Source: Pachyseris speciosa (taxonomy: Eukaryota > Cnidaria > Anthozoa > Scleractinia > Pachyseridae). Taken from it: a stretch of DNA of 64,000 bases. This document shows, in pieces, positions 4,217-52,905 of this stretch. Under the pieces are notes generated by a model. That model ran no database searches, was not told the DNA's origin, and was given only the letters and a program-made list of their open reading frames with translations. Every line of letters starts with the position of its first letter. The first letter of the stretch is position 1. The translations under genes were made by a program, and so were the position numbers. The DNA is taken from the NCBI GenBank assembly GCA_016490735.1, contig JAEMWC010001371.1, forward strand, positions 45,001-109,000. Direction: 5' to 3'.

Positions 4217-4440
4217 ATGTTACTAATACCAGGAACCGGGAATGGGGAACGGGGAACGGGCAACGGGCAACGGGCAACGGGCAACGGGCAACGGGCAACG
4301 GGCAACGGGGAACGGGCAACGGGGAACGGGCAACGGGGAACGGGGAACCGGGAACGGGAGTCTGGAAACCAGTGTACAGCGGTAATCCGCAAAAAAATTC
4401 AAAATGGCGGACGAAGGAAACGAAAATGGTCTGGGAACCA
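4217..4440 (+). repeat. G-rich 7-bp minisatellite (AACGGGC/AACGGGG) in a dispersed repeat, copy 1
   Basis: From about 4237 to 4360 the sequence is a run of 7-bp units (GGGCAAC or GGGGAAC), so G triplets recur every seven bases with four-base loops, a strong G-quadruplex pattern. Open frames across it on both strands are low-complexity artefacts. The right flank (GGGAGTCTGGAAACCAGTGT, then AAAAATTCAAAATGGCGGAC) is also found, inverted, beside the second array at 7060-7313, so the array belongs to a dispersed unit. The left flank holds ATAGTACAATGCACTTTCTT. Confidence 0.85.
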
Positions 4441-7059: not shown

Positions 7060-7313
7060 ATACGAGCTTCATATTTTCTCTGTTTACCTGTTTTCGTCTT
7101 GTTTTTGTCCGCCATTTTGAATTTTTTTCCGGACTACCGCTGTACACTGGTTCCCAGACTCCCGTTCCCGGTTCCCGGTTCCCGGTTCCCGGTTCCCTGT
7201 TCCCGGTTCCCGGTTCCCTGTTCCCCGTTCCCCGTTCCCTGTTCCCCGTTCCCCGTTCCCGTTCCCCGTTCCCCGTTCCCCGTTCCCCGTTCCCCGTTCC
7301 CGGTTCCTGGATA
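7060..7313 (-). repeat. Dispersed minisatellite unit, copy 2 (inverted relative to copy 1)
   Basis: The plus strand shows a C-rich array of TTCCCGG/TTCCCCG units from about 7161 to 7306. Read on the minus strand, the order CAGGAACCGGG, G-rich array, GGGAGTCTGGGAACCAGTG, TACAGCGG, TTCAAAATGGCGGAC matches copy 1 at 4231-4440. The 20-base block ATAGTACAATGCACTTTCTT lies beside both arrays but in opposite relative orientation, as if the ancestral unit had inverted ends. Confidence 0.85.
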
Positions 7314-8433: not shown

Positions 8434-8613
8434 ACCGTTCACCCAAGCTGTTAATGCTTGGGCTCAATCTTTGCTTTGGTAGATTTAAGGGGTAATGCCC
8501 GCTACCATGTGGCCTTAGTGCCAATAAAGTGGCTTCAGCTTGCCAGATCACATTAATTTGTGAGGTATCCTTGTCATTCCAGCCACATCCCACAAGCTTT
8601 ACGTTTTCACCCC
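8434..8613 (+). mobile_element. Truncated single copy of the 257-bp hammerhead repeat (retrozyme monomer)
   Basis: From GCTGTTAATGCTTGGGCTCA to CCACAAGCTTTACGTTTTCAC the sequence is a diverged copy of the unit tandemly repeated at 20251-23328, in opposite orientation, so ribozyme sense is on the + strand. It begins within a few bases of the point just after the predicted ribozyme cleavage site and stops before the CTGATGAG segment, so it lacks the catalytic core. It abuts the poly(A) tail of the LINE fragment. Confidence 0.8.
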
Positions 8614-10696: not shown

Positions 10697-10883
10697 AGAT
10701 AAGATAAAATATTCTGCGAGGGCCGAATAAAAGGGGGAAAGGTGACAAAATAAGACAATGAGTAGAACAGTCGATGGCAATGAGCGAGTGTCACTGTGAC
10801 AGGATCCAGTCACTATTCAAGTTACCATTCCCCAGATCTTAACCGGTCTTAAACTGGCCCATTTCAGTCCACTTTCCGACCCC

Positions 10884-13800
10884 TTGCCCTTGGCAATTAA
10901 GCCAACGTGCTGGAACACACGGCATACTTTTCTTCGTCTACCGCGGTCAGCGGTCAGCGAACAAGATGGACGTGTATTTTTGACGGCCATCAAAGTTCTT
11001 GAGTTTTTTATGAATTTTTGTACAGTGTCTTTACGTTTATTGTTGTTCTTGTCTGACTATGGTGCATGGACTGGTCAGCGGCGGTCGAACAAGATGGCGG
11101 GCATTTTCGTGGCTCCGATGAAATTGTTTTTTCTTGCCTTGTATCTTCACAATCTTTCACTAAAAAGTCATAATTTTGCATTCGAAGATACTACCTGTCT
11201 GAATGGTTACTTCATTTCGCCTTCTCTTCTTCAAATGAGGCTGAACGAAGCGGGTCTCCTGGTGAATGGAACTGACAACGATCGAACAAAGTCAACGTTA
11301 TTATCATGTTCCCCAGGCTCACTGTCTCTTCGCTTGATTATTCTTAGTGGAGATATTGCTCTGAACCCGGGACCCAAGTATCGTTTTCCATGTGGTGCTT
11401 GTTCCAAGCCGGTGAAAATCAACCAAAAAGGCGTTCAGTGTGATTTTTGCGACACGTGGTACCACGCTAAATGTTGCTCTATGAACGATGAGTGCTACAA
11501 CAACCTAGCCAACAGCTCCTGCTCATGGATCTGCTGTAAATGTGACGTCCCTAATTTTTCAAGATCATTATCCAGTAAACCTGAGATATCTGAGGATAAC
11601 TATTATCAATCCCTATCCTTCTTGGGTTCATCTTCCCCTGGGCCTTTGCATCAATCTACTTCATCGCCCAAGTCATCTCCGACATCTTCAAGTGGAAGTC
11701 CCTACAAATCCCACAATAAGAACCCTACGAAACTCCGAGTGATGTCAATTAATGCTCGCAGTTTGAAGAGTCAAACCAAGCGGTTGGAATTTCAGAATCT
11801 TGTTAATCTTCATAAACCAGCAATTATAAATGTTAACGAAACCCATATAAGTGACTCTGTTTTTTCATCAGAAATCCTGAACAGTGGATATACGATCTTC
11901 CGCAAAGACAGAGACTCATATGGGGGTGGAGTGCTGTCTGCTTTTTCAAACGATCTAGTAGTCTCACATGCACACCACCTTTCTGGCGACTATGAAGGTA
12001 TTTGGTCCAAAGTGGAAATAGCTGGCAGCAAACCACTCTATGTCGGTTCAATCTACAGACCACCTGACCCAGATGTTGAACCTTTGGAGGCTCTGGACCA
12101 AACATTATGCCACCTGACCCAGAAATCTCCCCCAAATATACTGCTCACTGGTGACTTTAATCTGCCAAGTGTTTCCTGGGCTGAAGATAACTACTCCATT
12201 CAACCCAATCCTGCATATGGACTTGAGGTGAACAATAAGCTGCTAGATATTGTAAATAGCCACTTCTTGACCCAACATGTGAAGCAACCAACTAGAGGTC
12301 ATCATATCCTAGACTTAGTATTTACAAGTAATCCTGACATGGTTACCAATTTGGAAGTTCAGAGTGGCATGAGCGATCATGATGCCATTATCTTTGATAT
12401 TAATTTAAAACCTTCACTGAACAGAAAGCAACCAAGGAAAGTGTTTATATTTAAGAAAGGTAATATGGAAGCTGTCAGAAATGACTTGAAAAAATGCTTT
12501 GATGAACACATAGCTACTGAGGCTCCATTCAAGTCAGTGGACGAGAATTATCAGTTCTTCAAGTCATCAATCAATGACAGCATAAGGAATCACATTCCTC
12601 AAAAGAATATCAGTGGACGTTGGAATGTACCTTGGTTAACAACTTCTATCAAACGTCTGACCAGAAAGAAGCAAAGGCTGTACAATAAAGCACGAAGAAC
12701 CGGTAATCCTAGTGACTGGAAAAAGTTTAAAGAGCTGCGAAAACATGTAAAGGAACAACTGTCTGTTGCACACAATGAATATGTATCAGGACTGTTATCA
12801 GCTCCTGAGGAATCCAATTCCAGCAAACCAGTACCAACCAAGCGATTTTGGTCATACATCAGATCCAAGAAATCCCATGATGTTGGAGTAGCTCCACTGA
12901 AGGATAACAATGTTGATGTGAACGACAGCCTTGGGAAAGCACACTTGTTGAGTAATCAATTTAAGTCAGTATTCACACAAGAAGATGCTGATAATATTCC
13001 ATATCTTGGCCCAAGTCCCTATCCTGATGTACCACCGACTGTTTTTACCATACCGGGAATACTTAAGTTATTGAACAACATCAATCCCAAGAAAGCTAAT
13101 GGCCCTGATCTGATCCCATGCCGTATCCTCAAAGAAGCAGCCGCAGAAGTTGCTCCATTCTTACAGTTCCTATTTACTCAATCTATGGAATCTGGAAGAG
13201 TGCCTAGTGACTGGTTGAAGGCAAATATTACACCTGTATTTAAAAAAGGCAGTAAACATCTTGCTGTTAACTATCGCCCTATTTCACTGACTGCTGTTCC
13301 ATGTAAGATCTTAGAACATATTATTCTTCATGACATAATGGCTCATCTGGACACCAACCACATACTGGTTAACTCCCAACATGGCTTCCGCAGGAGGTTT
13401 TCTTGTGAAACCCAGCTAATAACTACAATCGAGGAGATTGCCAAGGCCCTTGATAATGGTAAACAGACTGACCTCATAATTATGGACTTTTCCAAAGCCT
13501 TTGATGTTGTACCCCATCAGCGATTAATCAACAAACTGGATTATTACGGTATACGTGGTTGCCACAAGGATTGGCTAACCAATTGGCTTACATGTAGGGA
13601 ACAGTCTGTTGTTGTCGATGGTGTCTCATCTCCTCCAGTTCATGTTTTATCTGGTGTTCCGCAAGGAACTGTTTTAGGTCCCCTTATGTTTTTGTTATAT
13701 ATAAATGACATTGGTCATGATTGCTCCTCCACTATACGTTTGTTTGCCGACGATACTATCTTGTATAGTATTGTGGAATTAACAAGTGATGCTGAACATC

Positions 13801-14546
13801 TCCAATCTGACTTATCTGCCGTAGAACGTTGGTCAACAAAATGGCAGATGAAATTCAACCCAAGTAAATGCTTTGTCATGAGGATAGCCAGAAAACGTGA
13901 TCCTGTTATTTATAAGTATAAACTAATGGGCCAAACATTAGAATCAGTATTACACTACCCATATCTTGGAGTAGAGTTATCATCCAAATTAGATTGGAGC
14001 CACCACATTGATAACAAAGTCAACAAAGCAAATCAAATTCTTGGCTTCCTGCGAAGAAATCTTAGTAATTGCCCTGAATCAATTAAAGAACTAGCTTACA
14101 AAGCACTAGTGAGACCGCATTTGGAATATGCAAGCCCAGTGTGGGATCCATGGATGGACAAGCACATAAAGCAACTTGAAGCTGTACAGCGGCGATCTGC
14201 ACGTTTTGTAAAAAATTGTTGGGCGCGAACACCTGGAACTGTCACAAATTTACTCAATGATTTGGATTGGCCCCCTCTAGAAGTCCGGAGGAAAATTGCT
14301 CGCCTCACCGTTTTTCATAAGGCTATCCAAGGTGAATCAGCGATAGAACTCCCAAGCTATATTAAAGGATGCAATCGCCAACTAAGATCTACTCACCATA
14401 ATAGATTCACTGAATTGAGACCGAGAACGGAGGCCTACAGAAACTCCTTTTATTGCAGGACAATAAAGGAATGGAACTCATTGCCTAACAATGTTTTAGA
14501 TATAGAAAAATCTTCATTATTTCAGAAAGCGCTCAGACTAGACTAG
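10884..14546 (+). CDS. LINE A: 2A-like peptide, PHD finger, APE endonuclease and reverse transcriptase polyprotein
   Basis: The open frame is 1220 codons. The likelier start is the ATG at 11094 (residue 71, AACAAGATGGCGGGC), giving about 1150 residues. After a hydrophobic N-terminus comes SGDIALNPGP (155-164), then a PHD-type Cys/His finger (C170 to C220). An exonuclease-endonuclease-phosphatase domain follows (KLRVMSINARS from about 283, NETHISD, GSIYRPP, LTGDFNLPSVSW, MSDHDAI). The reverse transcriptase holds NITPVFKKGS, NYRPISL, DFSKAFDVVPH, SGVPQGTVLGP and catalytic FADD near 954, then a typical C-terminal region. This is an APE-type non-LTR retrotransposon of the CR1/jockey group. The frame is fully intact, suggesting recent activity. 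Confidence 0.93.
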   Translation: MPLAIKPTCWNTRHTFLRLPRSAVSEQDGRVFLTAIKVLEFFMNFCTVSLRLLLFLSDYGAWTGQRRSNKMAGIFVAPMKLFFLALYLHNLSLKSHNFAFEDTTCLNGYFISPSLLQMRLNEAGLLVNGTDNDRTKSTLLSCSPGSLSLRLIILSGDIALNPGPKYRFPCGACSKPVKINQKGVQCDFCDTWYHAKCCSMNDECYNNLANSSCSWICCKCDVPNFSRSLSSKPEISEDNYYQSLSFLGSSSPGPLHQSTSSPKSSPTSSSGSPYKSHNKNPTKLRVMSINARSLKSQTKRLEFQNLVNLHKPAIINVNETHISDSVFSSEILNSGYTIFRKDRDSYGGGVLSAFSNDLVVSHAHHLSGDYEGIWSKVEIAGSKPLYVGSIYRPPDPDVEPLEALDQTLCHLTQKSPPNILLTGDFNLPSVSWAEDNYSIQPNPAYGLEVNNKLLDIVNSHFLTQHVKQPTRGHHILDLVFTSNPDMVTNLEVQSGMSDHDAIIFDINLKPSLNRKQPRKVFIFKKGNMEAVRNDLKKCFDEHIATEAPFKSVDENYQFFKSSINDSIRNHIPQKNISGRWNVPWLTTSIKRLTRKKQRLYNKARRTGNPSDWKKFKELRKHVKEQLSVAHNEYVSGLLSAPEESNSSKPVPTKRFWSYIRSKKSHDVGVAPLKDNNVDVNDSLGKAHLLSNQFKSVFTQEDADNIPYLGPSPYPDVPPTVFTIPGILKLLNNINPKKANGPDLIPCRILKEAAAEVAPFLQFLFTQSMESGRVPSDWLKANITPVFKKGSKHLAVNYRPISLTAVPCKILEHIILHDIMAHLDTNHILVNSQHGFRRRFSCETQLITTIEEIAKALDNGKQTDLIIMDFSKAFDVVPHQRLINKLDYYGIRGCHKDWLTNWLTCREQSVVVDGVSSPPVHVLSGVPQGTVLGPLMFLLYINDIGHDCSSTIRLFADDTILYSIVELTSDAEHLQSDLSAVERWSTKWQMKFNPSKCFVMRIARKRDPVIYKYKLMGQTLESVLHYPYLGVELSSKLDWSHHIDNKVNKANQILGFLRRNLSNCPESIKELAYKALVRPHLEYASPVWDPWMDKHIKQLEAVQRRSARFVKNCWARTPGTVTNLLNDLDWPPLEVRRKIARLTVFHKAIQGESAIELPSYIKGCNRQLRSTHHNRFTELRPRTEAYRNSFYCRTIKEWNSLPNNVLDIEKSSLFQKALRLD
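11346..11375 (+). other. 2A-like ribosome-skipping motif in LINE A
   Basis: Codons for SGDIALNPGP precede the PHD finger. The 2A consensus is D(V/I)ExNPGP; here Glu is replaced by Ala (DIALNPGP). 2A sequences in the same N-terminal place are documented in CR1-like LINEs of marine invertebrates. With the Glu missing, skipping may be weak or lost. Confidence 0.6.
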
Positions 14547-15565: not shown

Positions 15566-18500
15566 ATGACAATGTCTAAGTGTAGGAACTGTATGAGGCC
15601 TGTGAAAGAGAATTGTAGAGGCATCCAGTGTCATTCTTGCCTCTGGTGGTTTCACTTTAAATGTTCTGCCTTATCTGTTAAAGAGTTCAATTATTTCACT
15701 ACAACTCATGACTTGTGGCTCTGCCTGCATTGTCGTCAAGAAATTTTTCCGTTTAACTCTGTAGAAGACCATGAGCTGACTGAGCTCTTGGTCTATAATT
15801 CCAACACAGATTGTCTCTGCTCTGATAAAATCTCCAGATTGAATCTAGAGTCCTTACCATGTTTTGATCTATCTACATGTATTAATAATAGCCCTAATTT
15901 ATCTAGCATTGATATTGATTTGAATTTACCCTCTGTGACTAATTTTGGTTATTATTCAACTCATGAGTTTCACTCTAATGAAGATATTCGATCAACTATC
16001 TCTGATAGGACATTTTCTGCCTTGCATTTTAATATAAGAAGTCTCTCAGCAAACTTTGATGATTTCTATCATATGTTATGTGACATGAAATATTCTTTTT
16101 CTGTTATTGCTCTTTCCGAAACTAAAATCAAAGCTGGAATTGATCCTTTTTTAAATACTAATCTTCCTGGTTACTCTTTTTTGTCTCAACCATCTATGTC
16201 TAATGCTGGTGGTGTTGGTTTCTACATTAAAGATAACCTTTCATATATAAAACGTGATGACTTTTGCACGTCTAATCCAGAATTTGAGTCCATTTGGATT
16301 GAAATTGAGGTCCCACACCAGCATAATATTGTCTGTGGATTAATATATAGGCATCCTGATCAAAATATTACCAAAGCTGCTGACTTTTTCTATAAGGCGA
16401 CTGAGAAAGTAAATAATGAAGGTAAATTTTGTCTTCTGATGGGCGATTTTAATATTAATCTTTTGAACTATGATTCTCATTCTGAAACAGAAGATTTCGT
16501 AAATACTCTAGGATCCTATGCATTTCATCCACAAATTCTGAAACCTACTAGAATAACTTATCATTCTGCAACCTTGATAATTTTTGATAATATATTTTTT
16601 AATTCACTGGAGCATTATGCTATTAGTGGTAATATTGTCTGTGGGATAACAGATCACTTGCCTAATTTTCTGATTATCACAAAGTTATCCAATCCTCCAA
16701 AAAATTTTAAGATGTACAAAAGGGACTACTCAGGGCTTGATAATGAATTGCTCATATCTGAGGTCAGCAAGGTGAACTGGGAGGAGGTACTAGCTAGTGA
16801 ATCTGGAGTGCTTGATGTTAACACTATATTTCAGAATTTCTATCTCTGTATTTCTAATCTGGTCAACAAGCACGCACCTCTTCGTAAACTTACTCGCAAA
16901 GAAATCAAGTCATTATCCAAGCCCTGGGTCACACCAGGCATCCAAACATCAATTAGGCTGAAGGAAAAGTTTTATAAGCGTTTCCTAGAATCTAGGAATA
17001 TATATTTCTTAACTAAATACAAGTTTTATCGGAACAAGATTACCGAATTGCTTAAAGCCAGCAAAAAGAATTACTACCATAATTACTTCATTGCTAATAG
17101 TAAAAATATTAAAAAAACCTGGGCAGGCATTAAAGAATTAATTACTCTCAAACCAAATGGATTCAGCTCTCCCTCTAAAATTGTTGTTGGTAACAATGTC
17201 ATTACTGATTCTAAGGCTATTGCCTCAGCTTTTAATGATCATTTTTCTCAAATTGGCAGTAAATTAGCAGAAGACATTCCTCAAGTTGATATTGATCCCC
17301 TAGACTTCCTTGGTCCTTCACTGGCAAATAGTTTTATGCTATTTCCTGCTTCTGCAGCAGAGATAGAAGAGATAATTTCTAGCCTGAACTCGTCCAAGGC
17401 TTCTGGTCCTTTTAGCATTCCTGTATGCCTGCTAAAGCTATTAAAAACCTGCATATCATTCCCCTTGGAATTTATTTTTAATATTTCGTTTAGTAGTGGG
17501 TGTGTGCCTGACCAATTTAAGTTAGCTAATGTTATTCCAGTTCATAAAAAGGACTCAGTCACTTGCATGAATAACTACCGACCTATTTCATTGCTCTCCA
17601 TTTTCAATAAAATCCTGGAGAAGCTTGTGTATAATAGACTTATCACTTTTATTGAAAAATATAATGTTATATATGACAAACAATTTGGCTTTAGGAGAAA
17701 TCATTCCACTCTTCATGCAACTCTTTTAATTACAGACAAAATTCAGAGAGCAATTGAAGATGGCCTATTTTCCTGTGGAATTTTTCTTGATTTCTCTAAG
17801 GCTTTTGATACTGTTGATCATAACATATTACTAAAGAAATTAAGCCACTATGGAATCCGTGGTATTGCTAATGACTGATTTGCTTCCTATTTAAGCAATA
17901 GGAGGCAGTATGTTACTATAGGTAGTATTAAATCAGAAGACACCCTAATTACTCATGGTGTCCCACAGGGTTCTGTGCTAGGCCCTCTTCTATTTCTCCT
18001 ATATATCAATGATTTCAGTAAGTGCAGCAATGTCTTTGACTTTCACATTTTCGCAGATGATACAAATCTATTTTACTCTAATTCTAAGTTAGCAGAACTC
18101 GAGTCCATTGTTAATTATAATCTGAAAATGGTCTCTGACTGGCTTACGGCGAATAAGGTCTCATTAAATATAGATAAGACAAATTTCATTATTTTCCATC
18201 CCCCTCAAAAGGTCAAAGGTCACTTAGTCAAATTGACAATTGATAATAGGGAGATTGCACAAGAGAAATTTATTAAGTACTTGGGTCTCATCATTGATTC
18301 ACATCTCAGTTGGAAGTATCACATTTTACATATTTCAAAAAAGATTAAGAGATGTATTGGCATACTATCTAAGATAAGGTATTCTGTGACCGATGTGGTC
18401 CTTGTACAGCTGTATTACTCACTTATATATCCTTTCCTGACTTATAGTCTAATAACCTGGGGGACTACATATCAAACAACTCTTTTACCTCTTATCACCT

Positions 18501-19166: not shown

Positions 19167-19980
19167 CTACCTCTGCGCGGGGAAAGGCGTAAAACAGGCT
19201 GCCACAACTCAAGAACACACTCGTGGTTAAAACGTTTGCTTCAAGTTTCAATACACAAACTCAAAAGTTAGAACAATGTTTCATGATTCTTCGTAGTGAA
19301 GGCCATTTCGGCCTCATTATCCGTCATAATCCTCTTCACTTCACTCGAGTATTAAGTTCTGCACGTTTTCATCTTAATTCAGTGATAGCTTTTTTTCCTG
19401 TCAGTGTTTGATCACTCAAAGTCCCTGACATTTCATAGTAATGATAGCATGTAAACCCTTGAGGCGCAAGAAGTACCTCTTAATTCACTATAGCTTTCCG
19501 GAGGAACATTGACATTGGTCCGATTCCTTTGAACTGGGCAAGATTTCTGGTAGGTTGACTTTAGTATTTAAGGAAAAGGTTTGAATAGAGCAGCAGAAAT
19601 AGGAAGCAAAATAAGACACGCACGTTTATGGGTATCTACATGTTCACTGGTCTGCATTAACCGAATGAGCTGAAATAGTTCCCAGTAAAAGAATCGACTC
19701 GCAAACATGTATAAGTCTGTCAAACAAGAGGCTACAATTAGCCTAAACTCGGGCTTGCAAAACACAGTATTGTATCCCTAACTTAGCGCTAAACAAAAGA
19801 ATAGAGGGAAGTCTGTCTTTCTTACATCGGACGCATTGTGTTTAGCTTGTGTTGGAGTCTATTTCTTTAGACCCCTATCAACATATATTTCTCTAAAATA
19901 CAGCTCCACCATTGAGCACAATAATTATAACACTTGTAAAAAATATTTCTAAAAGAACAAGAAAAAGAGAAACAGAAAAA
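19167..19980. other. No supported feature
   Basis: AT-rich; no open frame with a recognisable domain. Confidence 0.4.
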
Positions 19981-19989
19981 ATAAAGCCC

Positions 19990-20070
19990 GTGATATATAC
20001 CACTAAAGGACATCGAACCCGGGTTAGCTGCGTCACAGGCAGGAACAATGACCTTTAGGCCACAGAGGTT
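19990..20070 (-). repeat. Degenerate tRNA-like sequence
   Basis: On the minus strand the order GTGGCCTAAAGGTCATTG (A box-like), CTGC-CTGTGAC-GCAG (anticodon-type stem-loop, GUG in the anticodon position) and CCCGGGTTCGATGTCC (B box-like) resembles a tRNA or SINE head. The T stem is broken and no clean acceptor stem forms, so this is a relic, not a working tRNA. Confidence 0.35.
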
Positions 20071-20235
20071 TATCGTTATGCAAGATGATAAAAATAGTGT
20101 ATTGATTCCAAAAAAAAAAAAAACTAAGCACACTTGTTTTCGCTTCGATGGATAATTGTTTGAGAAAGGAAACGCTTATCGAACGATGTTGGATTTTTTC
20201 GCATAAATGTGAATGGAGTATCGGTGAAATGTGAG

Positions 20236-20250
20236 TAGAAAATTAATTAG
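20236..20250. repeat. Left target-site duplication of the hammerhead array
   Basis: TAGAAAATTAATTAG, identical over 15 bp to 23329-23343 at the other end of the array. Confidence 0.88.
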
Positions 20251-20357
20251 GATATACCTCACAAATTAATGTGATTTGGTAAGCTGAAGCCTCTCTAAAG
20301 GCACTAAGGCCACATGGTAGCGGGCATTACCCCTTAAATCTACCAAAAGCAAAGATT

Positions 20358-20438
20358 GAGCCCAAGCATTAGCAGCCATGGACAGCTGTTTCGGCCTTGT
20401 TAGGCCTCATCAGCATGGCATAGCTAATGCTCAGGCTC
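20358..20438 (-). ncRNA. Hammerhead ribozyme, unit 1, intact
   Basis: On the minus strand: helix I 5' side GAGCC-TGA-GCATTAGC-TAT-GCCATG; core CTGATGAG; helix II GCCT-AACA-AGGC closed by G-C; core CGAAAC; loop AGCT; GTC with cleavage between 20381 and 20380; helix I 3' side CATGGC-T-GCTAATGC-TTG-GGCTC. Helix I pairs over 6, 8 and 5 bp with two internal loops. Helix III is only A-U and C-G with a four-base loop, the minimal type I form, and CAGCTG could also pair in a dimer. Confidence 0.9.
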
Positions 20439-20614
20439 AAGTACCCACATATCCATAAAACAAGCAGTGAAAACGTGAAGCTTGTGGGATGTGGCTGGAG
20501 TGACAAGGATATACCTCACAAATTAATGTGATTTGGTAAGCTGAAGCCACTCTAAAGGCACTAAGGCCACATGGTAGCGGGCATTAACCCTTAAATCTAC
20601 CAAAAGCAAAGATT

Positions 20615-20695
20615 GAGCCCAAGCATTAGCAGCCATGGACAGCTGTTTCGGCCTTCTTAGGCCTCATCAGCTTGGCATAGCTAATGCTCAGGCTC
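20615..20695 (-). ncRNA. Hammerhead ribozyme, unit 2, core intact with helix I mismatch
   Basis: CTGATGAG and GAAA are kept. The base-proximal helix I strand is GCCAAG instead of GCCATG (A-A mismatch against CATGGC) and the helix II loop is changed (TAAGAA). Probably weaker than unit 1. Confidence 0.8.
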
Positions 20696-20871
20696 AAGTA
20701 CCCACATATCCATAAAACAAGCAGTGAAAACGTGAAGCTTGTGGGATGTGGCTGGAATGACAAGGATATACCTCACAAATTAATGTGATTTGGTAAGCTG
20801 AAGCCACTCTAAAGGCACTAAGGCCACATGGTAGCATGCATTACCCCTTAAATCTACCAAAAGCAAAGATT

Positions 20872-20952
20872 GAGCCCAAGCATTAGCAGCCATGGACAGC
20901 TGATGAGGCATTGTTAGGCCTCATCAGCATGGCATAGCTAATGCTCAGGCTC
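20872..20952 (-). ncRNA. Hammerhead site, unit 3, core converted (inactive)
   Basis: The GAAA of the core reads TCAT, and one helix II base also differs (TGCC instead of GGCC). Helix I is kept. Without GAAA cleavage is not expected. Confidence 0.8.
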
Positions 20953-21128
20953 AAGTACCCACATATCCATAAAACAAGCAGTGAAAACGTGAAGCTTGTG
21001 GGATGTGGCTGGAGTGACAAGGATATACCTCACAAATTAATGTGATTTGGTAAGCTGAAGCCTCTCTAAAGGCACTAAGGCCACATGGTAGCGGGCATTA
21101 CCCCTTAAATCTACCAAAAGCAAAGATT

Positions 21129-21209
21129 GAGCCCAAGCATTAGCAGCCATGGACAGCTGTTTCGGCCTTGTTAGGCCTCATCAGCATGGCATAGCTAATG
21201 CTCAGGCTC
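21129..21209 (-). ncRNA. Hammerhead ribozyme, unit 4, intact
   Basis: Same core and helices as unit 1, no change in any catalytic position or in helix I. Confidence 0.9.
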
Positions 21210-21385
21210 AAGTACCCACATATCCATAAAACAAGCAGTGAAAACGTGAAGCTTGTAGGATGTGGCTGGAGTGACAAGGATATACCTCACAAATTAATGT
21301 GATTTGGTAAGCTGAAGCCACTCTAAAGGCACTAAGGCCACATGGTAGCGGGCATTACCCCTTAAATCTACCAAAAGCAAAGATT

Positions 21386-21466
21386 GAGCCCAAGCATTAG
21401 CAGCCATGGACAGCTGTTTCGGCCTTGTTAGGCCTCATCAGCATGGCATAGCTAATGCTCAGGCTC
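21386..21466 (-). ncRNA. Hammerhead ribozyme, unit 5, intact
   Basis: Core CTGATGAG, CGAAAC and GTC all present, helix I fully paired as in unit 1. Confidence 0.9.
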
Positions 21467-21642
21467 AAGTACCCACATATCCATAAAACAAGCAGTGAAA
21501 ACGTGAAGCTTGTGGGATGTGGCTGGAATGACAAGGATATACCTCACAAATTAATGTGATTTGGTAAGCTGAAGCCACTCTAAAGGCACTAAGGCCACAT
21601 GGTAGCGGGCATTACCCCTTAAATCTACCAAAAGCAAAGATT

Positions 21643-21723
21643 GAGCCCAAGGATTAGCAGCCATGGACAGCTGATGAGGCCTTGTTAGGCCTCATCAGCA
21701 TGGCATAGCTAATGCTCAGGCTC
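21643..21723 (-). ncRNA. Hammerhead site, unit 6, core converted (inactive)
   Basis: GAAA is TCAT, making CTGATGAGGCC-TAACAA-GGCCTCATCAG a perfect hairpin arm pair. It also carries the GCTAATCC variant in the helix I 3' strand, shared with units 7 and 11. Confidence 0.82.
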
Positions 21724-21899
21724 AAGTACCCACATATCCATAAAACAAGCAGTGAAAACGTGAAGCTTGTGGGATGTGGCTGGAGTGACAAGGATATACC
21801 TCACAAATTAATGTGATTTGGTAAGCTGAAGCCACTCTAAAGGCACTAAGGCCACATGGTAGCGGGCATTACCCCTTAAATCTACCAAAAGCAAAGATT

Positions 21900-21980
21900 G
21901 AGCCCAAGGATTAGCAGCCATGGACAGCTGATGAGGCCTTGTTAGGCCTCATCAGCATGGCATAGCTAATGCTCAGGCTC
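21900..21980 (-). ncRNA. Hammerhead site, unit 7, core converted (inactive)
   Basis: Same TCAT conversion and same helix I variant as unit 6, its neighbour. Confidence 0.82.
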
Positions 21981-22156
21981 AAGTACCCACATATCCATAA
22001 AACAAGCAGTGAAAACGTGAAGCTTGTGGGATGTGGCTGGAGTGACAAGGATATACCTCACAAATTAATGTGATTTGGTAAGCTGAAGCCACTCTAAAGG
22101 CACTAAGGCCACATGGTAGCGGGCATTACCCCTTAAATCTACCAAAAACAAAGATT

Positions 22157-22237
22157 GAGCCCAAGCATTAGCAGCCATGGACAGCTGTTTCGGCCTTGTT
22201 AGGCCTCATCAGCATGGCATAGCTAATGCTCAGGCTC
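22157..22237 (-). ncRNA. Hammerhead ribozyme, unit 8, intact
   Basis: Core and helix I as in unit 1. A private A (CCAAAAACAAAG) lies outside the ribozyme. Confidence 0.9.
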
Positions 22238-22413
22238 AAGTACCCACATATCCATAAAACAAGCAGTGAAAACGTGAAGCTTGTTGGATGTGGCTGGAGT
22301 GACAAGGATATACCTCACAAATTAATGTGATTTGGTAAGCTGAAGCCACTCTAAAGGCACTAAGGCCACATGGTAGCGGGCATTAACCCTTAAATCTACC
22401 AAAAGCAAAGATT

Positions 22414-22494
22414 GAGCCCAAGCATTAGCAGCCATGGACAGCTGATGAGGCCTTGTTAGGCCTCATCAGCATGGCATAGCTAATGCTCAGGCTC
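22414..22494 (-). ncRNA. Hammerhead site, unit 9, core converted (inactive)
   Basis: GAAA is TCAT; helix I is unchanged. Confidence 0.82.
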
Positions 22495-22670
22495 AAGTAC
22501 CCACATATCCATAAAACAAGCAGTGAAAACGTGAAGCTTGTGGGATGTGGCTGGAGTGACAAGGATATACCTCACAAATTAATGTGATTTGGTAAGCTGA
22601 AGCCTCTCTAAAGGCACTAAGGCCACATGGTAGCGGGCATTACCCCTTAAATCTACCAAAAGCAAAGATT

Positions 22671-22751
22671 GAGCCCAAGCATTAGCAGCCATGGACAGCT
22701 GATGAGGCCTTGTTAGGCCTCATCAGCATGGCATAGCTAATGCTCAGGCTC
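22671..22751 (-). ncRNA. Hammerhead site, unit 10, core converted (inactive)
   Basis: GAAA is TCAT; helix I is unchanged. Confidence 0.82.
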
Positions 22752-22927
22752 AAGTACCCACATATCCATAAAACAAGCAGTGAAAACGTGAAGCTTGTGG
22801 GATGTGGCTGGAATGACAAGGATATACCTCACAAATTAATGTGATTTGGTAAGCTGAAGCCACTCTAAAGGCACTAAGGCCACATGGTAGCGGGCATTAC
22901 CCCTTAAATCTACCAAAAGCAAAGATT

Positions 22928-23008
22928 GAGCCCAAGGATTAGCAGCCATGGACAGCTGATGAGGCCTTGTTAGGCCTCATCAGCATGGCATAGCTAATGC
23001 TCAGGCTC
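22928..23008 (-). ncRNA. Hammerhead site, unit 11, core converted (inactive)
   Basis: GAAA is TCAT, with the helix I variant of units 6 and 7. Confidence 0.82.
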
Positions 23009-23184
23009 AAGTACCCACATATCCATAAAACAAGCAGTGAAAACGTGAAGCTTGTGGGATGTGGCTGGAGTGACAAGGATATACCTCACAAATTAATGTG
23101 ATTTGGTAAGCTGAAGCCACTCTAAAGGCACTAAGGCCACATGGTAGCGGGCATTACCCCTTAAATCTACCAAAAGCAAAGATT

Positions 23185-23240
23185 GAGCCCAAGCATTAGC
23201 AGCCACGGACAGCTGTTTCGGCCTTGTTAGGCCTCATCAG
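23185..23240 (-). ncRNA. Hammerhead site, unit 12, core kept but helix I lost
   Basis: CTGATGAG, helix II and GAAA are intact, but the 5' strand of helix I is missing because the array switches to an inverted copy directly after CTGATGAG. The 3' strand also has a change (CCGTGG). It cannot fold as a complete type I hammerhead. Confidence 0.8.
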
Positions 23241-23328
23241 AGTGGCTTCAGCTTACCAAATCACATTAATTTGTGAGGTTTATCCTTGTCACTCCAGCCA
23301 CATCCCACAAGCTTCACGTTTTCACTGC
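23239..23328 (+). repeat. Inverted partial unit closing the array
   Basis: AGTGGCTTCAGCTTACCAAA through CACGTTTTCACTGC is the reverse complement of about 88 bp of the array unit (equivalent to about 20466-20552). Inverted terminal fragments are a known habit of Penelope-like insertions. Confidence 0.85.
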
Positions 23329-23343
23329 TAGAAAATTAATTAG
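23329..23343. repeat. Right target-site duplication of the hammerhead array
   Basis: TAGAAAATTAATTAG, identical to 20236-20250. Confidence 0.88.
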
Positions 23344-23586
23344 CAGAGTGAAACTGTTTACAAATACGTCAATCCAGGGTCATTTGAAACACAAGAAAGG
23401 AACGTTTCTGGACAGTTTCAAGGGACGCTAGTACATTTGTAAAATATAATCGCTTATCATTCAAAAATTAAAGTCCAGAAATTGAGATATTGTGGCAAAA
23501 TAGTAAATAAACTACCTGTCAAAGTCTCAGGGGTGTGTGATATCCCGTACTTAAGTTATTCAACAAAATGTACATCTCAATGGAGC

Positions 23587-24116
23587 GGATACGGGGAACA
23601 CGGCAATCCATCTGGAGTTAAATTTTGGTCATGTTAAAAGCTTTCTTCTCGCTGTTGAACTTGCAAACATTCGTATAGACACTTAACATATTAGTTGTTC
23701 AGACTTCAAAGACACAAGGTGAATCGACGTTTTCCGATACGTGACAACAGGCATCATTCTTGCTGTTGATATGAGATTTACACTTCCGAATCACTCGGCC
23801 GTGAAAGGTCAAACTCCCTTTGTCTGTAGTCTCTAATTTTTGGCGCTCCCCTCGCGTCGCGTCTCCTCGCAACTTCGCGCGCGCACGTGCCCTCACAATC
23901 CGTCGCCAAAATTAGAGACTACTCGCTGTCTACTGAAGCAGACACGGGGAAACACGGTAGTCCATCTGCCGTTAAGTTTACTCATGTTAAAAACTTTCTT
24001 CTCGCCGTTGAACTTCCAAACATTCGCATAGACACTTCTCTTAACATATTGTTTGTTCATACTTCAAAAGCCACAAGATGAATCGACATTTTCCCATACG
24101 TGACAACACGCATCAC
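23587..24116. repeat. About 170-bp direct duplication flanking a CpG-rich hairpin segment
   Basis: The segment from ACGGGGAACACGG to ATACGTGACAACAGGCATCA (about 23590-23756) recurs from ACGGGGAAACACGG to CATACGTGACAACACGCATCA (about 23944-24115) with scattered differences. Between them, AGTCTCTAATTTTTGGCG (23829) and CGCCAAAATTAGAGACT (23902) are inverted complements around a CpG-rich stretch with many CGCG motifs. Confidence 0.65.
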
Positions 24117-25296
24117 TGTTGTTAAAAATAGTTAGCGCTTGCGCAGAAACACCGGAAGTGCCATTTGTGGATGATACTCGACGACGAAAAAGAATTCGAG
24201 AACCGTCGGTAGTTCTAGACCCGGGCGCCGCGCGAGACGCGCGCAGCCCCGGTAAAAAGGCCACCAATTTTGGTATGTATGTATCCAGTGCTTAATCCGA
24301 CAAAACGGTGTCGAATTGCGCACATCTGCCATTGTCAAAAGCGCGTTTCCCTATTTAGCAGTCGGGAAAAAAGCGGGAACTAGGGAAAAACCACCATAGG
24401 TTGACACAAGTACAATGCATGCGAGGTTAAAACGAGTCTTAAAGCCGACGCAAGTTGTATCCGGTTCACTGATTTTGTTTAAGTTCTTTTACCCAGGGTC
24501 ATAGAAAAAATGAGGTTTCATTTGATCTTATAGTACTCCAGCCAGCCTAACAAAAGCTAAGGGCGTAATGAGTAACAAATTGATAAGGAGAGGGACCACT
24601 TTTAATAATTTTCTTTTAAAATTGCGCCGCATGCGTTTACTTGGCTCGCCCTGTTATCGAAGAGTTATCTCACTGAAATCTTCGAAAACAGAACTCAATA
24701 AGCTGTTGCAAGTTGTGGAATTAGTGTGAAACAGGTAAAATAGATTTAAATGAGTTGATCATTGATAAGCTTAAGCTTCTCTCCAGCTCTGGGTTGACAT
24801 TGACCCATTTTCCTCCAGTCCCATCCACCCCTCCCCTCCATTTTGACTGACATGTCCCGGCTGGAGAAATTTAGAGTTATGTCCCTGAGTGAAACCTTCA
24901 CTACACCAGAAAATATTTCGCGCAACCTGTCCCACGATTTTTTGGCGCCGTATGGAGAAACGTTTCTTTGGGTAAAAACCTAGCATTGAGGCTTGCAATT
25001 TATTGAGCGTCGCAGGAATCGCGAATGGTGGAGCCAACTTCAACTGCTGCCGACGATTGTTATACTCACAAAATTGATTTGTCGTGCATTTTATGTGGCA
25101 AAAAGTGCCTCAAATTGTCTACTAATATAGTCCTTAAGGCCTTGACCCCCAGCTTAATTAAGCCGAGCACGTACATTGTTTCAAGCAAGAGCCCTGAAAC
25201 CCTTTAAACTGAAACCCTTTAAACTTTTATTGATTAGTTTACCTTCAATAGTTGCATTTCATGATGAAATGGAGCAAACTGGATTACCGCTTCGTA
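24117..25296. other. No supported gene; CpG-rich patch at about 24120-24350
   Basis: The patch holds GCGCCGCGCGAGACGCGCGC and AATGGCAGATGTGCG-like sequence (minus strand) and could be a promoter, but no linked coding exon was found. The rest is AT-rich. Confidence 0.3.
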
Positions 25297-49059: not shown

Positions 49060-49580
49060 AAGATGGTTCTAACGTTTGAGTCTTGGATGAAATCCTCAAA
49101 TGTGACCTTTGGTGCGAAACCTGATGAGTACTAATTTCCTGTTCATGTGGCAGCTGTGTAAGGTGGTTCTAACCTTTGTGTCAGTTAGCAGACGACATAT
49201 TATTAACGTCAGCACTTTCACGATTCATTAAAAGGTGGTTCCGAATTTTGAGTCTGTGGATGAAATCCTAAAGTGTGACCATTCAAATGAAAGCTATTGA
49301 GAAGTACTTTTATTATGCTGTACAAGGTGCTTCTAACTTTTGAGTCTGTGGATGAAATCCTTAAGTGTGACCATTCAAATGAAAGCTACTGAGCAGTACT
49401 TTCATGTAATGCTGTATACAATGATTTAAAAGGCGGTTCTATGGTTTGCGTCTGTGGAACATCTACCAAGCAGTACTTTCCTGTGCTGCTGTTTGTTGTG
49501 CATTGTACTGGGCCGTGTGACCATTCAAATAGAGGATTCTGAGTAGAACTTCCGTGTGACCTTTGCAATGAAAGCTACTG
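49060..49580 (+). repeat. 105-bp dispersed repeat, diverged array
   Basis: Several diverged units with GTGTGACCATTCAAATGAAA, AGCTACTGAGCAGTACTTTC and GTTCTAACTTTTGAGTCTGT, some truncated. Confidence 0.75.
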
Positions 49581-52495: not shown

Positions 52496-52905
52496 TAAAA
52501 TCTTACTGACAGTCAAAAGAAAGCTACTGGGTATTACTTTCTTGTGCTGCTGTTTATTATGCTGTACAAGATGGTTCAAACTTTTGTGTCTGTGAATAAA
52601 ATCCTTGAGTGTGACCATTCAAATGAAAGCTACTGAGCAGTACTTTCATGTGCTGCTGTTTATTATGCTGTACAAGATGGTTCAAACTTTTGTGTCTGTG
52701 AATAAAATCCTTGAGTGTGGCCATTCAAATGAAAGCTACTGAGCAGTACTTTCCTGTGCTGCTGTTTATTATGCTGTACAAGATGGTTCACACTTTGTGT
52801 CTGTGAATAAAATCCTTGAGTGTGACCATTCAAATGAAAGCTACTGAGCAGTACTTTCCTGTGCTGCTGTTTATTGTGCTGTACAAAATGGTTTTAACTT
52901 CTAGG
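52496..52905 (+). repeat. 105-106 bp tandem repeat, about four units
   Basis: GTGACCATTCAAATGAAAGC recurs at 52611, 52717 (GTGGCC) and 52822. Units are over 90% alike by eye and each contains GAGCAGTACTTTC, TGCTGCTGTTTATTATGCTG and TCTGTGAATAAAATCCTTGA. Confidence 0.9.

Follow-up and report, generated by a model that had tools for sequence, protein, structure and literature searches.

We analyzed a tandem array of hammerhead ribozyme units in a 64000-nucleotide stretch of the genome of the stony coral Pachyseris speciosa (contig JAEMWC010001371.1, positions 45001 to 109000 of the forward strand; this whole stretch is called the window, and positions are counted from its first nucleotide) and compared it with its relatives in the same genome. 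The array belongs to a known kind of element, the retrozyme; what is new is the architecture of its insertion and the mechanistic implication of that architecture. As judged from sequence, insertions of this retrozyme have two narrow start zones, each used once per insertion, two arms that point inward, a target duplication, and an empty site. It is very likely that the retrozyme was inserted by an enzyme of the Penelope-like element (PLE) type, which copied an RNA circle from both sides, and that the copy in the window later aged as a satellite.

Architecture of the retrozyme insertions

The window array consists of a long arm of 11.6 copies of a 257-bp unit (20249 to 23240; 98% matches between units in a tandem-repeat analysis of the window), with its hammerheads on the minus strand, followed by a short arm of 88 bp on the plus strand (23241 to 23328), which is an inverted copy of unit positions ~215 through 257/1 to 45. 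The 12 unit starts, at 20250, 20507, and onward to 23077, are spaced exactly 257 throughout, in agreement with the exact period over 11.6 units given in the original prediction. The long arm appears to have been copied from a site that we call A (unit position ~1) and the short arm from a site that we call B (unit position ~214). The two overlap by 2 nt where they are joined and can pair along 91-nt arms that are 98 to 99% complementary. The predicted 15-bp flanking duplication was found at both ends as TAGAAAATTAATTAG (left copy, 20236 to 20250, its last 2 bases overlapping the start of the array; right copy, 23329 to 23343, matching the left), with no third copy within the window and a probability of chance occurrence of ~4e-6, offsets allowed for. 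The array had also been described as inserted as one piece; a single event is upheld, but the array is not uniformly direct, being made of two inward arms. The unit has a G+C content of 46%, and its longest stop-free stretch is 48 amino acids in four tandem units, indicating that it is non-coding.

Comparison of repeat copies placed the array within a dispersed host repeat (19723 to 24255), which is ~1.4 kb long without the array. When the flanks were joined over one TAGAAAATTAATTAG, the genome gave at least 40 matches at 99% over the whole 136 nt (the best 40 of 603 candidates), and in all three host repeat copies that were read this sequence is present once and uninterrupted at the insertion site. 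Because the empty site exists in other copies of the dispersed repeat, the array arrived as an insertion, and the insertion with target duplication that had been predicted is confirmed.

A search of the genome (984 Mb in 2368 contigs) gave at least 199 unit matches, and 35 loci were sampled, the window array plus 34 other clusters among the matches listed (the best 40 of 1167 candidates, and thus biased to the best-scoring relatives). One of them, L044, has the same flanks as L037 and was dropped for independent counts. Of the 35 loci, 31 showed two arms, which were inward in every case (30 loci without L044; four were cut at one outer end); L045 was cut at both ends. The outer ends fall in two narrow zones ~44 nt apart, site A at unit positions ~251 to 2 (GGATATACC) and site B at ~208 to 220 (GCAGTGAAAACG). 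Exact-start matching misses several B ends, position 228 being variable, and end counts were taken from a locus-by-locus table. Among the 30 loci with both ends seen, 23 had one A and one B end (22 without L044), 1 had two A ends, none had two B ends, and 6 had other combinations. For the 23 independent loci with a target duplication of at least 11 bp, these numbers were 20 with one A and one B, 1 with two A ends, and 2 with an odd start. Unlike pairing in 20 of the 21 independent duplication-bearing loci with both ends at A or B has a P of ~1e-5 under random pairing. Among the 30 loci with both ends in view, 24 had target duplications of 12 to 17 bp; 21 of these 24 are 13 to 15 bp long, and their pooled composition is 73% AT.

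The inner ends, by comparison, are scattered over the unit. Eighteen of the 31 inner joints have an overlap of 0 to 4 nt, 9 have 1 to 9 extra bases, and 2 have 27 to 33; those of L044 and L051 are irregular. Foldback of one cDNA was rejected as a source of the two arms, as the arms would then share an end position in the unit, yet the ends are A and B. Taken together, the tandem hammerhead units, their non-coding nature, and their dispersal with target duplications support the prediction that this is a retrozyme of the animal type, a non-autonomous retroelement with hammerheads. L037 and L044 share flanks and target duplication and have different arm lengths, and could be allelic copies or a duplicated locus with a change in array length. 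The largest array seen, L043 (C1307, ~82127 to 91581), has arms of ~27 and 9.5 units, all nearly identical, and is likely recent. L040 and L065 are short two-armed loci with unit divergences of 2.8% and 4.9%, above that of the window array.

Template and later history of the window array

When substitution differences were pooled, with indel-prone positions excluded and L043 dominating, units of the same arm differed by 0.16%, units in opposite arms of a locus by 0.12%, and units of different loci by 1.07%; without L043, the same-arm and between-arm values were both 0.21%. The corresponding locus medians were 0.11% within an arm (31 loci) and 0.15% between arms (27 loci). In L048, L051, L053, L061, L062, L066, and L069, a substitution unique among the sampled loci is shared by all scored units in the two arms. 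Such a pattern implies passage through a single unit, a bottleneck that a monomer RNA circle would impose. On this sequence evidence, both arms descend from one monomer in these seven loci, and we infer that the template was a covalently closed RNA circle. Alternatively, the template could have been linear, a long multimeric transcript from an array already in the genome, with no circle involved. PLE protein in vitro accepts unprocessed linear RNA, hammerhead mutants leave insertion unaffected (PMC11167929), and dead hammerheads in arrays like that of the window would leave multimers. We nevertheless regard a linear template as unlikely, since it does not provide the bottleneck that private mutations in all units need, and since 223 of the 227 cores in other loci (found with a pattern allowing up to 4 substitutions) are intact, so that transcripts would be cut to monomers if the ribozyme works.

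The hammerheads of the window array are in a different state. The predicted type I hammerhead on the minus strand is present, Rfam Hammerhead_1 scoring 33.9 bits in units 1 (20375 to 20419), 4 (21146 to 21190), 5 (21403 to 21447), and 8 (22174 to 22218) and 29.8 bits in unit 2 (20632 to 20676), but all five lie just below the gathering score of 34, and a search of the window at the gathering threshold gave no match. The predicted cleavage position in unit 1, between 20381 and 20380, agrees with the sequence as read. Unit 12 (23207 to 23240, minus strand) also has an intact core, and its normal helix I was lost at the arm junction (Hammerhead_HH9, 24.7 bits against a cut-off of 52). By inspection, the inverted tail of this unit and a private change at unit position 130 permit a substitute helix of ~6 pairs after one mismatch. 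Intact cores are thus found in 6 of the 12 units. Sequence comparison of the other six, units 3 (20889 to 20933), 6 (21660 to 21704), 7 (21917 to 21961), 9 (22431 to 22475), 10 (22688 to 22732), and 11 (22945 to 22989), all on the minus strand, revealed three common substitutions (unit positions 140, 142, and 143) that abolish GAAA and turn the core into a perfect 11-bp hairpin, with one extra change in unit 3. Five of these six units give weak Hammerhead_HH9 matches (15.7 to 20.5 bits; gathering score, 52), and unit 3 gives none. The array had been taken for twelve hammerheads in full, which the palindromic cores of six units rule out.

Of 200 shuffled versions of the 73-nt hammerhead region, 199 fold less well than the region itself (z, -3.1). 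In its minimum-energy fold, part of the catalytic core is paired, so that this is not itself the active fold. Helix III, by inspection, has one pair and an AGCU loop. Cutting of minus-strand transcripts to 257-nt monomers only, as originally proposed, is unlikely for this copy; because intact sites with a normal helix I are present only at units 1, 2, 4, 5, and 8, pieces of 257, 514, and 771 nt would be expected. A search of viral contigs for the hammerhead core gave no matches.

Units in the same arm of the window array differ by 1.80%, the third highest value of 32 loci, compared to a median of 0.11% for the 31 scored sister loci. Only L065 and L040 are higher, both with few comparable units, and none of the 19 other loci with at least five units exceeds 0.66%. 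The window array is 1.9% different from other loci. The host repeat copy that carries it has 8 private substitutions in 770 columns, compared to 1, 4, and 4 in three other copies; this alignment covers only the shared part of the repeat, MAFFT alignment of 3-kb stretches being uninformative outside it. Five variants are shared among units of the array. Three of them, 43T, 118G, and the dead core, are private among the sampled loci, G251A also occurs in L040 and L052, and the fifth, at unit position 81, was excluded from divergence counts as indel-prone. Five of the ten pairs of these variants show four gametes, and the units are therefore mosaic, which implies exchange between units or recurrence. 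The high unit divergence, the exchange of variants, the private dead core, and the substitutions in the host repeat together indicate an older insertion that mutated and was partly homogenized in place. The window array is an older, half-inactivated retrozyme copy, among the most decayed of those sampled; the suggestion that it may be a young insertion is excluded by its unit divergence and the private substitutions of its host repeat. Mixed RNA templates were judged a less likely origin of this heterogeneity, three of the five shared variants being private among the loci sampled.

The live core forms a quasi-palindrome in which 8 of 11 pairs match, and a single templated correction yields exactly the dead form. 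After insertion, such a correction would have killed one hammerhead, exchange between units would have spread the dead core to six, and the array would have aged as a small satellite; unequal crossing over of the satellite type is the best account of this later history. The ease of the correction could also mean that dead cores arose independently in each unit by recurrent correction, with no spread from one event. This is quite improbable, as none of the 227 cores in other loci is palindromic, the four broken ones included, and the exact dead core occurs five times genome-wide, every time in the window array.

Penelope-like elements and the inserting enzyme

In the mechanism that we propose, a PLE-type reverse transcriptase-endonuclease would make a staggered cut, mostly of 13 to 15 bp, in AT-rich DNA, and both 3' ends of the target would prime reverse transcription inside the small retrozyme RNA, one at A and the other at B. 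Each cDNA would be extended around the RNA circle for a varying number of turns, in rolling-circle fashion, and the two cDNAs, facing each other, would then be joined, in many cases at a short microhomology. A purified PLE protein was shown to cut both strands of the target and to extend them from two neighboring start sites inside the RNA (Frangieh et al. 2024, PMC11167929). In that report, the genomic "tail" of PLEs is the stretch between the two internal start sites, and inverted pseudo-long terminal repeats (pLTRs), one with an optional 31-bp tail, have also been reported (PMC3846280). The A/B pairing, the inward arms, and the target duplication of the retrozyme match this signature of two adjacent internal starts and extension of both target strands, and we infer that the inserting enzyme is a PLE. 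The prediction had invoked the reverse transcriptase of another element, which is supported and can now be specified as PLE type from the two start zones and their pairing.

The retrozyme resembles PLEs (PMC11167929, PMC3846280) in its inverted terminal copies, its two internal start sites of reverse transcription a few tens of nucleotides apart with an extension, or tail, on one end (20 of 21 independent duplication-bearing loci), its short AT-rich target duplications, and its minimal hammerhead near the start sites, which lie 131 nt (A) and 172 to 175 nt (B) after the hammerhead cut. In a predicted fold of the circle, A would lie in an unpaired stretch, two bases ahead of a helix strand, and B where a loop borders a helix. 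The retrozyme is not itself a PLE: PLEs have a single open reading frame with a telomerase-like reverse transcriptase and a GIY-YIG endonuclease, whereas the retrozyme unit has no open reading frame, forms multimers of one non-coding sequence, and has its own start spacing of 44 nt.

A putative PLE family in this genome was used for comparison. Its fragment in the window (36972 to 37647, plus strand, separate from the array) has a GIY-YIG-like region (19.5 bits; cut-off, 22.6) and a minimal hammerhead near 37477 and ends in (TA)n; it sits between (AT)n tracts, and its family has inverted pairs with a short and a long end. The end points of the family are ~49 and ~110 to 123 nt after its hammerhead cut. 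Eleven pairs in minus-then-plus order were examined among the matches listed, and all 6 that could be scored (C1858, C104, C261, C427, C550, and C374) had one short and one long end. Pairs C1001 and C10, from a diverged subfamily, are compatible with short and long ends with bounds that are not sharp, and C101, C140, and C680 were not scorable and are outside the six counted. The PLE label rests on sub-threshold GIY-YIG matches, on motifs in a 632-residue open frame that we take, by eye and from general knowledge, to be reverse transcriptase-like, and on relatives of that frame with up to 74% identity named from the clam Solemya velum and from Oculina patagonica, a stony coral; a Pfam GIY-YIG domain is present in at least the best-scoring of these relatives. 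A search of PDB sequences with the frame gave no matches.

A long interspersed nuclear element (LINE) could be proposed as the source of the machinery, with the inversion arising by ordinary twin priming. In L1 twin priming, both target strands prime on the RNA, an inverted segment results, and microhomology is found at the inner joint, as at the retrozyme joints. The resulting inverted insertions are flanked by target duplications (PMC2837659), and the window contains LINE-like open reading frames with reverse transcriptase and endonuclease domains (10800 to 14543 and 15566 to 17875). However, the retrozymes have two arms in 31 of 35 loci rather than occasionally, many units are possible in both arms, no A-tail was seen at the ends, the starts are internal and fixed in two zones, and PLEs are described as the only elements that initiate at two internal sites (PMC11167929). 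We therefore consider LINE-type insertion very improbable. Ordinary satellite DNA, formed by unequal crossing over with no mobile step, is already refuted as the origin: the variants shuffled among window units and the private dead variant in 6 of 12 units indicate that exchange happened, but the target duplications in 24 loci, the uninterrupted empty-site matches, and the dispersed loci with ends in two narrow zones stand against it.

Several observations weigh against insertion by a PLE-type enzyme from a single circle. The bias of the locus sample is one. Three loci (L041, L060, and L064) have one arm only; L052 has two A ends, L040 and L063 have one odd start each, and L051 is complex. No target duplication of at least 11 bp was present in 6 of 30 loci (7 bp in L047, 8 bp in L060, and none found in L041, L051, L053, and L064). 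The two arms of L059 are distinguished by two positions, as though the target strands had used different RNAs as templates, and those of L040, L042, L046, L061, and L065 are 1 to 5% apart, via other templates or later mutation, so that one template for both arms would not account for every locus unless changes followed later. The mosaic units of the window array, taken alone, would not suggest a single circle. For the PLE family, pair C728 (outside the 11 examined) is in the opposite order, the Pfam GIY-YIG matches reach 16.8 to 19.5 bits compared to the cut-off of 22.6, and its open frame has no Pfam reverse transcriptase match at E 0.01. Nor was any PLE found to share the A and B sequences. 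The start spacing is ~70 nt in the PLE family versus 44 nt in the retrozyme, and the family ends in (TA)n, versus (TA)n in 1 of 24 retrozyme target duplications; because of this last difference from most retrozyme sites, the family examined need not be the partner of the retrozyme.

Relation to known retrozymes and implications

Metazoan non-long terminal repeat retrozymes (PMC7229834) are non-coding tandem repeats of ~150 to 450 bp, each unit carrying a type I hammerhead, with a G+C content below 50%, and are dispersed with target duplications longer than 4 bp. The Pachyseris element shares these features, with ~256/257-bp repeats, intact cores in 6 of 12 window units and 223 of 227 elsewhere (Rfam scores just below gathering), a G+C content of 46%, no open reading frame, and target duplications of 12 to 17 bp in 24 of 30 loci. 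Retrozyme transcripts are also expected to cut themselves and to circulate as monomer circles, for which the single-unit bottleneck would be indirect support in the Pachyseris element. Retrozyme repeats of another coral, Acropora millepora, are 220 to 240 bp (Cervera and de la Pena 2020, PMC7229834). The two-armed structure, fixed starts, and tail are not described in the accessible part of that report, which leaves the mobilizing element open. The one-pair helix III is unlike the usual invertebrate form and like that of amphibian hammerhead satellites such as axolotl HHR_Amex1, which also have a palindromic tetraloop and likely need dimers (PMC7229834); these differ in sequence and host. The W-elements of Schistosoma are likewise dispersed, satellite-like hammerhead repeats, one copy having a possible target duplication, and a two-armed structure with two start sites is not described for them in the accessible part of the source (PMC8490949). 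A title and abstract search of the open-licence literature found no description of two-armed retrozymes, which does not prove their absence from it.

Elsewhere in the window, an older retrozyme fragment that is 93 to 94% identical (8447 to 8610, minus strand) lies beside a poly-A run, separate from the array; by inspection, one of its ends falls at site B. A 7-bp repeat (GGGCAAC / CCCGTTC) forms two arrays, at 4234 to 4358 and 7161 to 7307, and the units of two tandem repeats, at 52513 to 52900 (106 bp) and 49232 to 49416 (92 bp), share TCAAATGAAAGCTACTGAG. The LINE search listed few names, among them Pinctada at 41%.

Which machinery returns animal hammerhead circles to DNA has been left open in the accessible parts of earlier reports (PMC7229834, PMC7761336, PMC11722881), one of which names LINEs or PLEs as possible drivers, with PLEs a strong candidate, and leaves the priming unspecified (PMC7229834). 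The two start zones, each used once per insertion, and the private mutations common to both arms offer a concrete, testable answer, along with a genomic readout of PLE strand choice that can be searched for in any assembled animal genome. It is reasonably likely that animal retrozymes are satellites of PLEs, whose enzyme, probably as a dimer, would copy the ribozyme-made circle at two fixed sites from both strands at once, with one proximal and one distal start. If this is true, the rule of one A and one B end would be a general property of PLE insertion that extends beyond retrozymes. The window copy, in turn, illustrates how such an insertion decays into a satellite that carries dead ribozymes.

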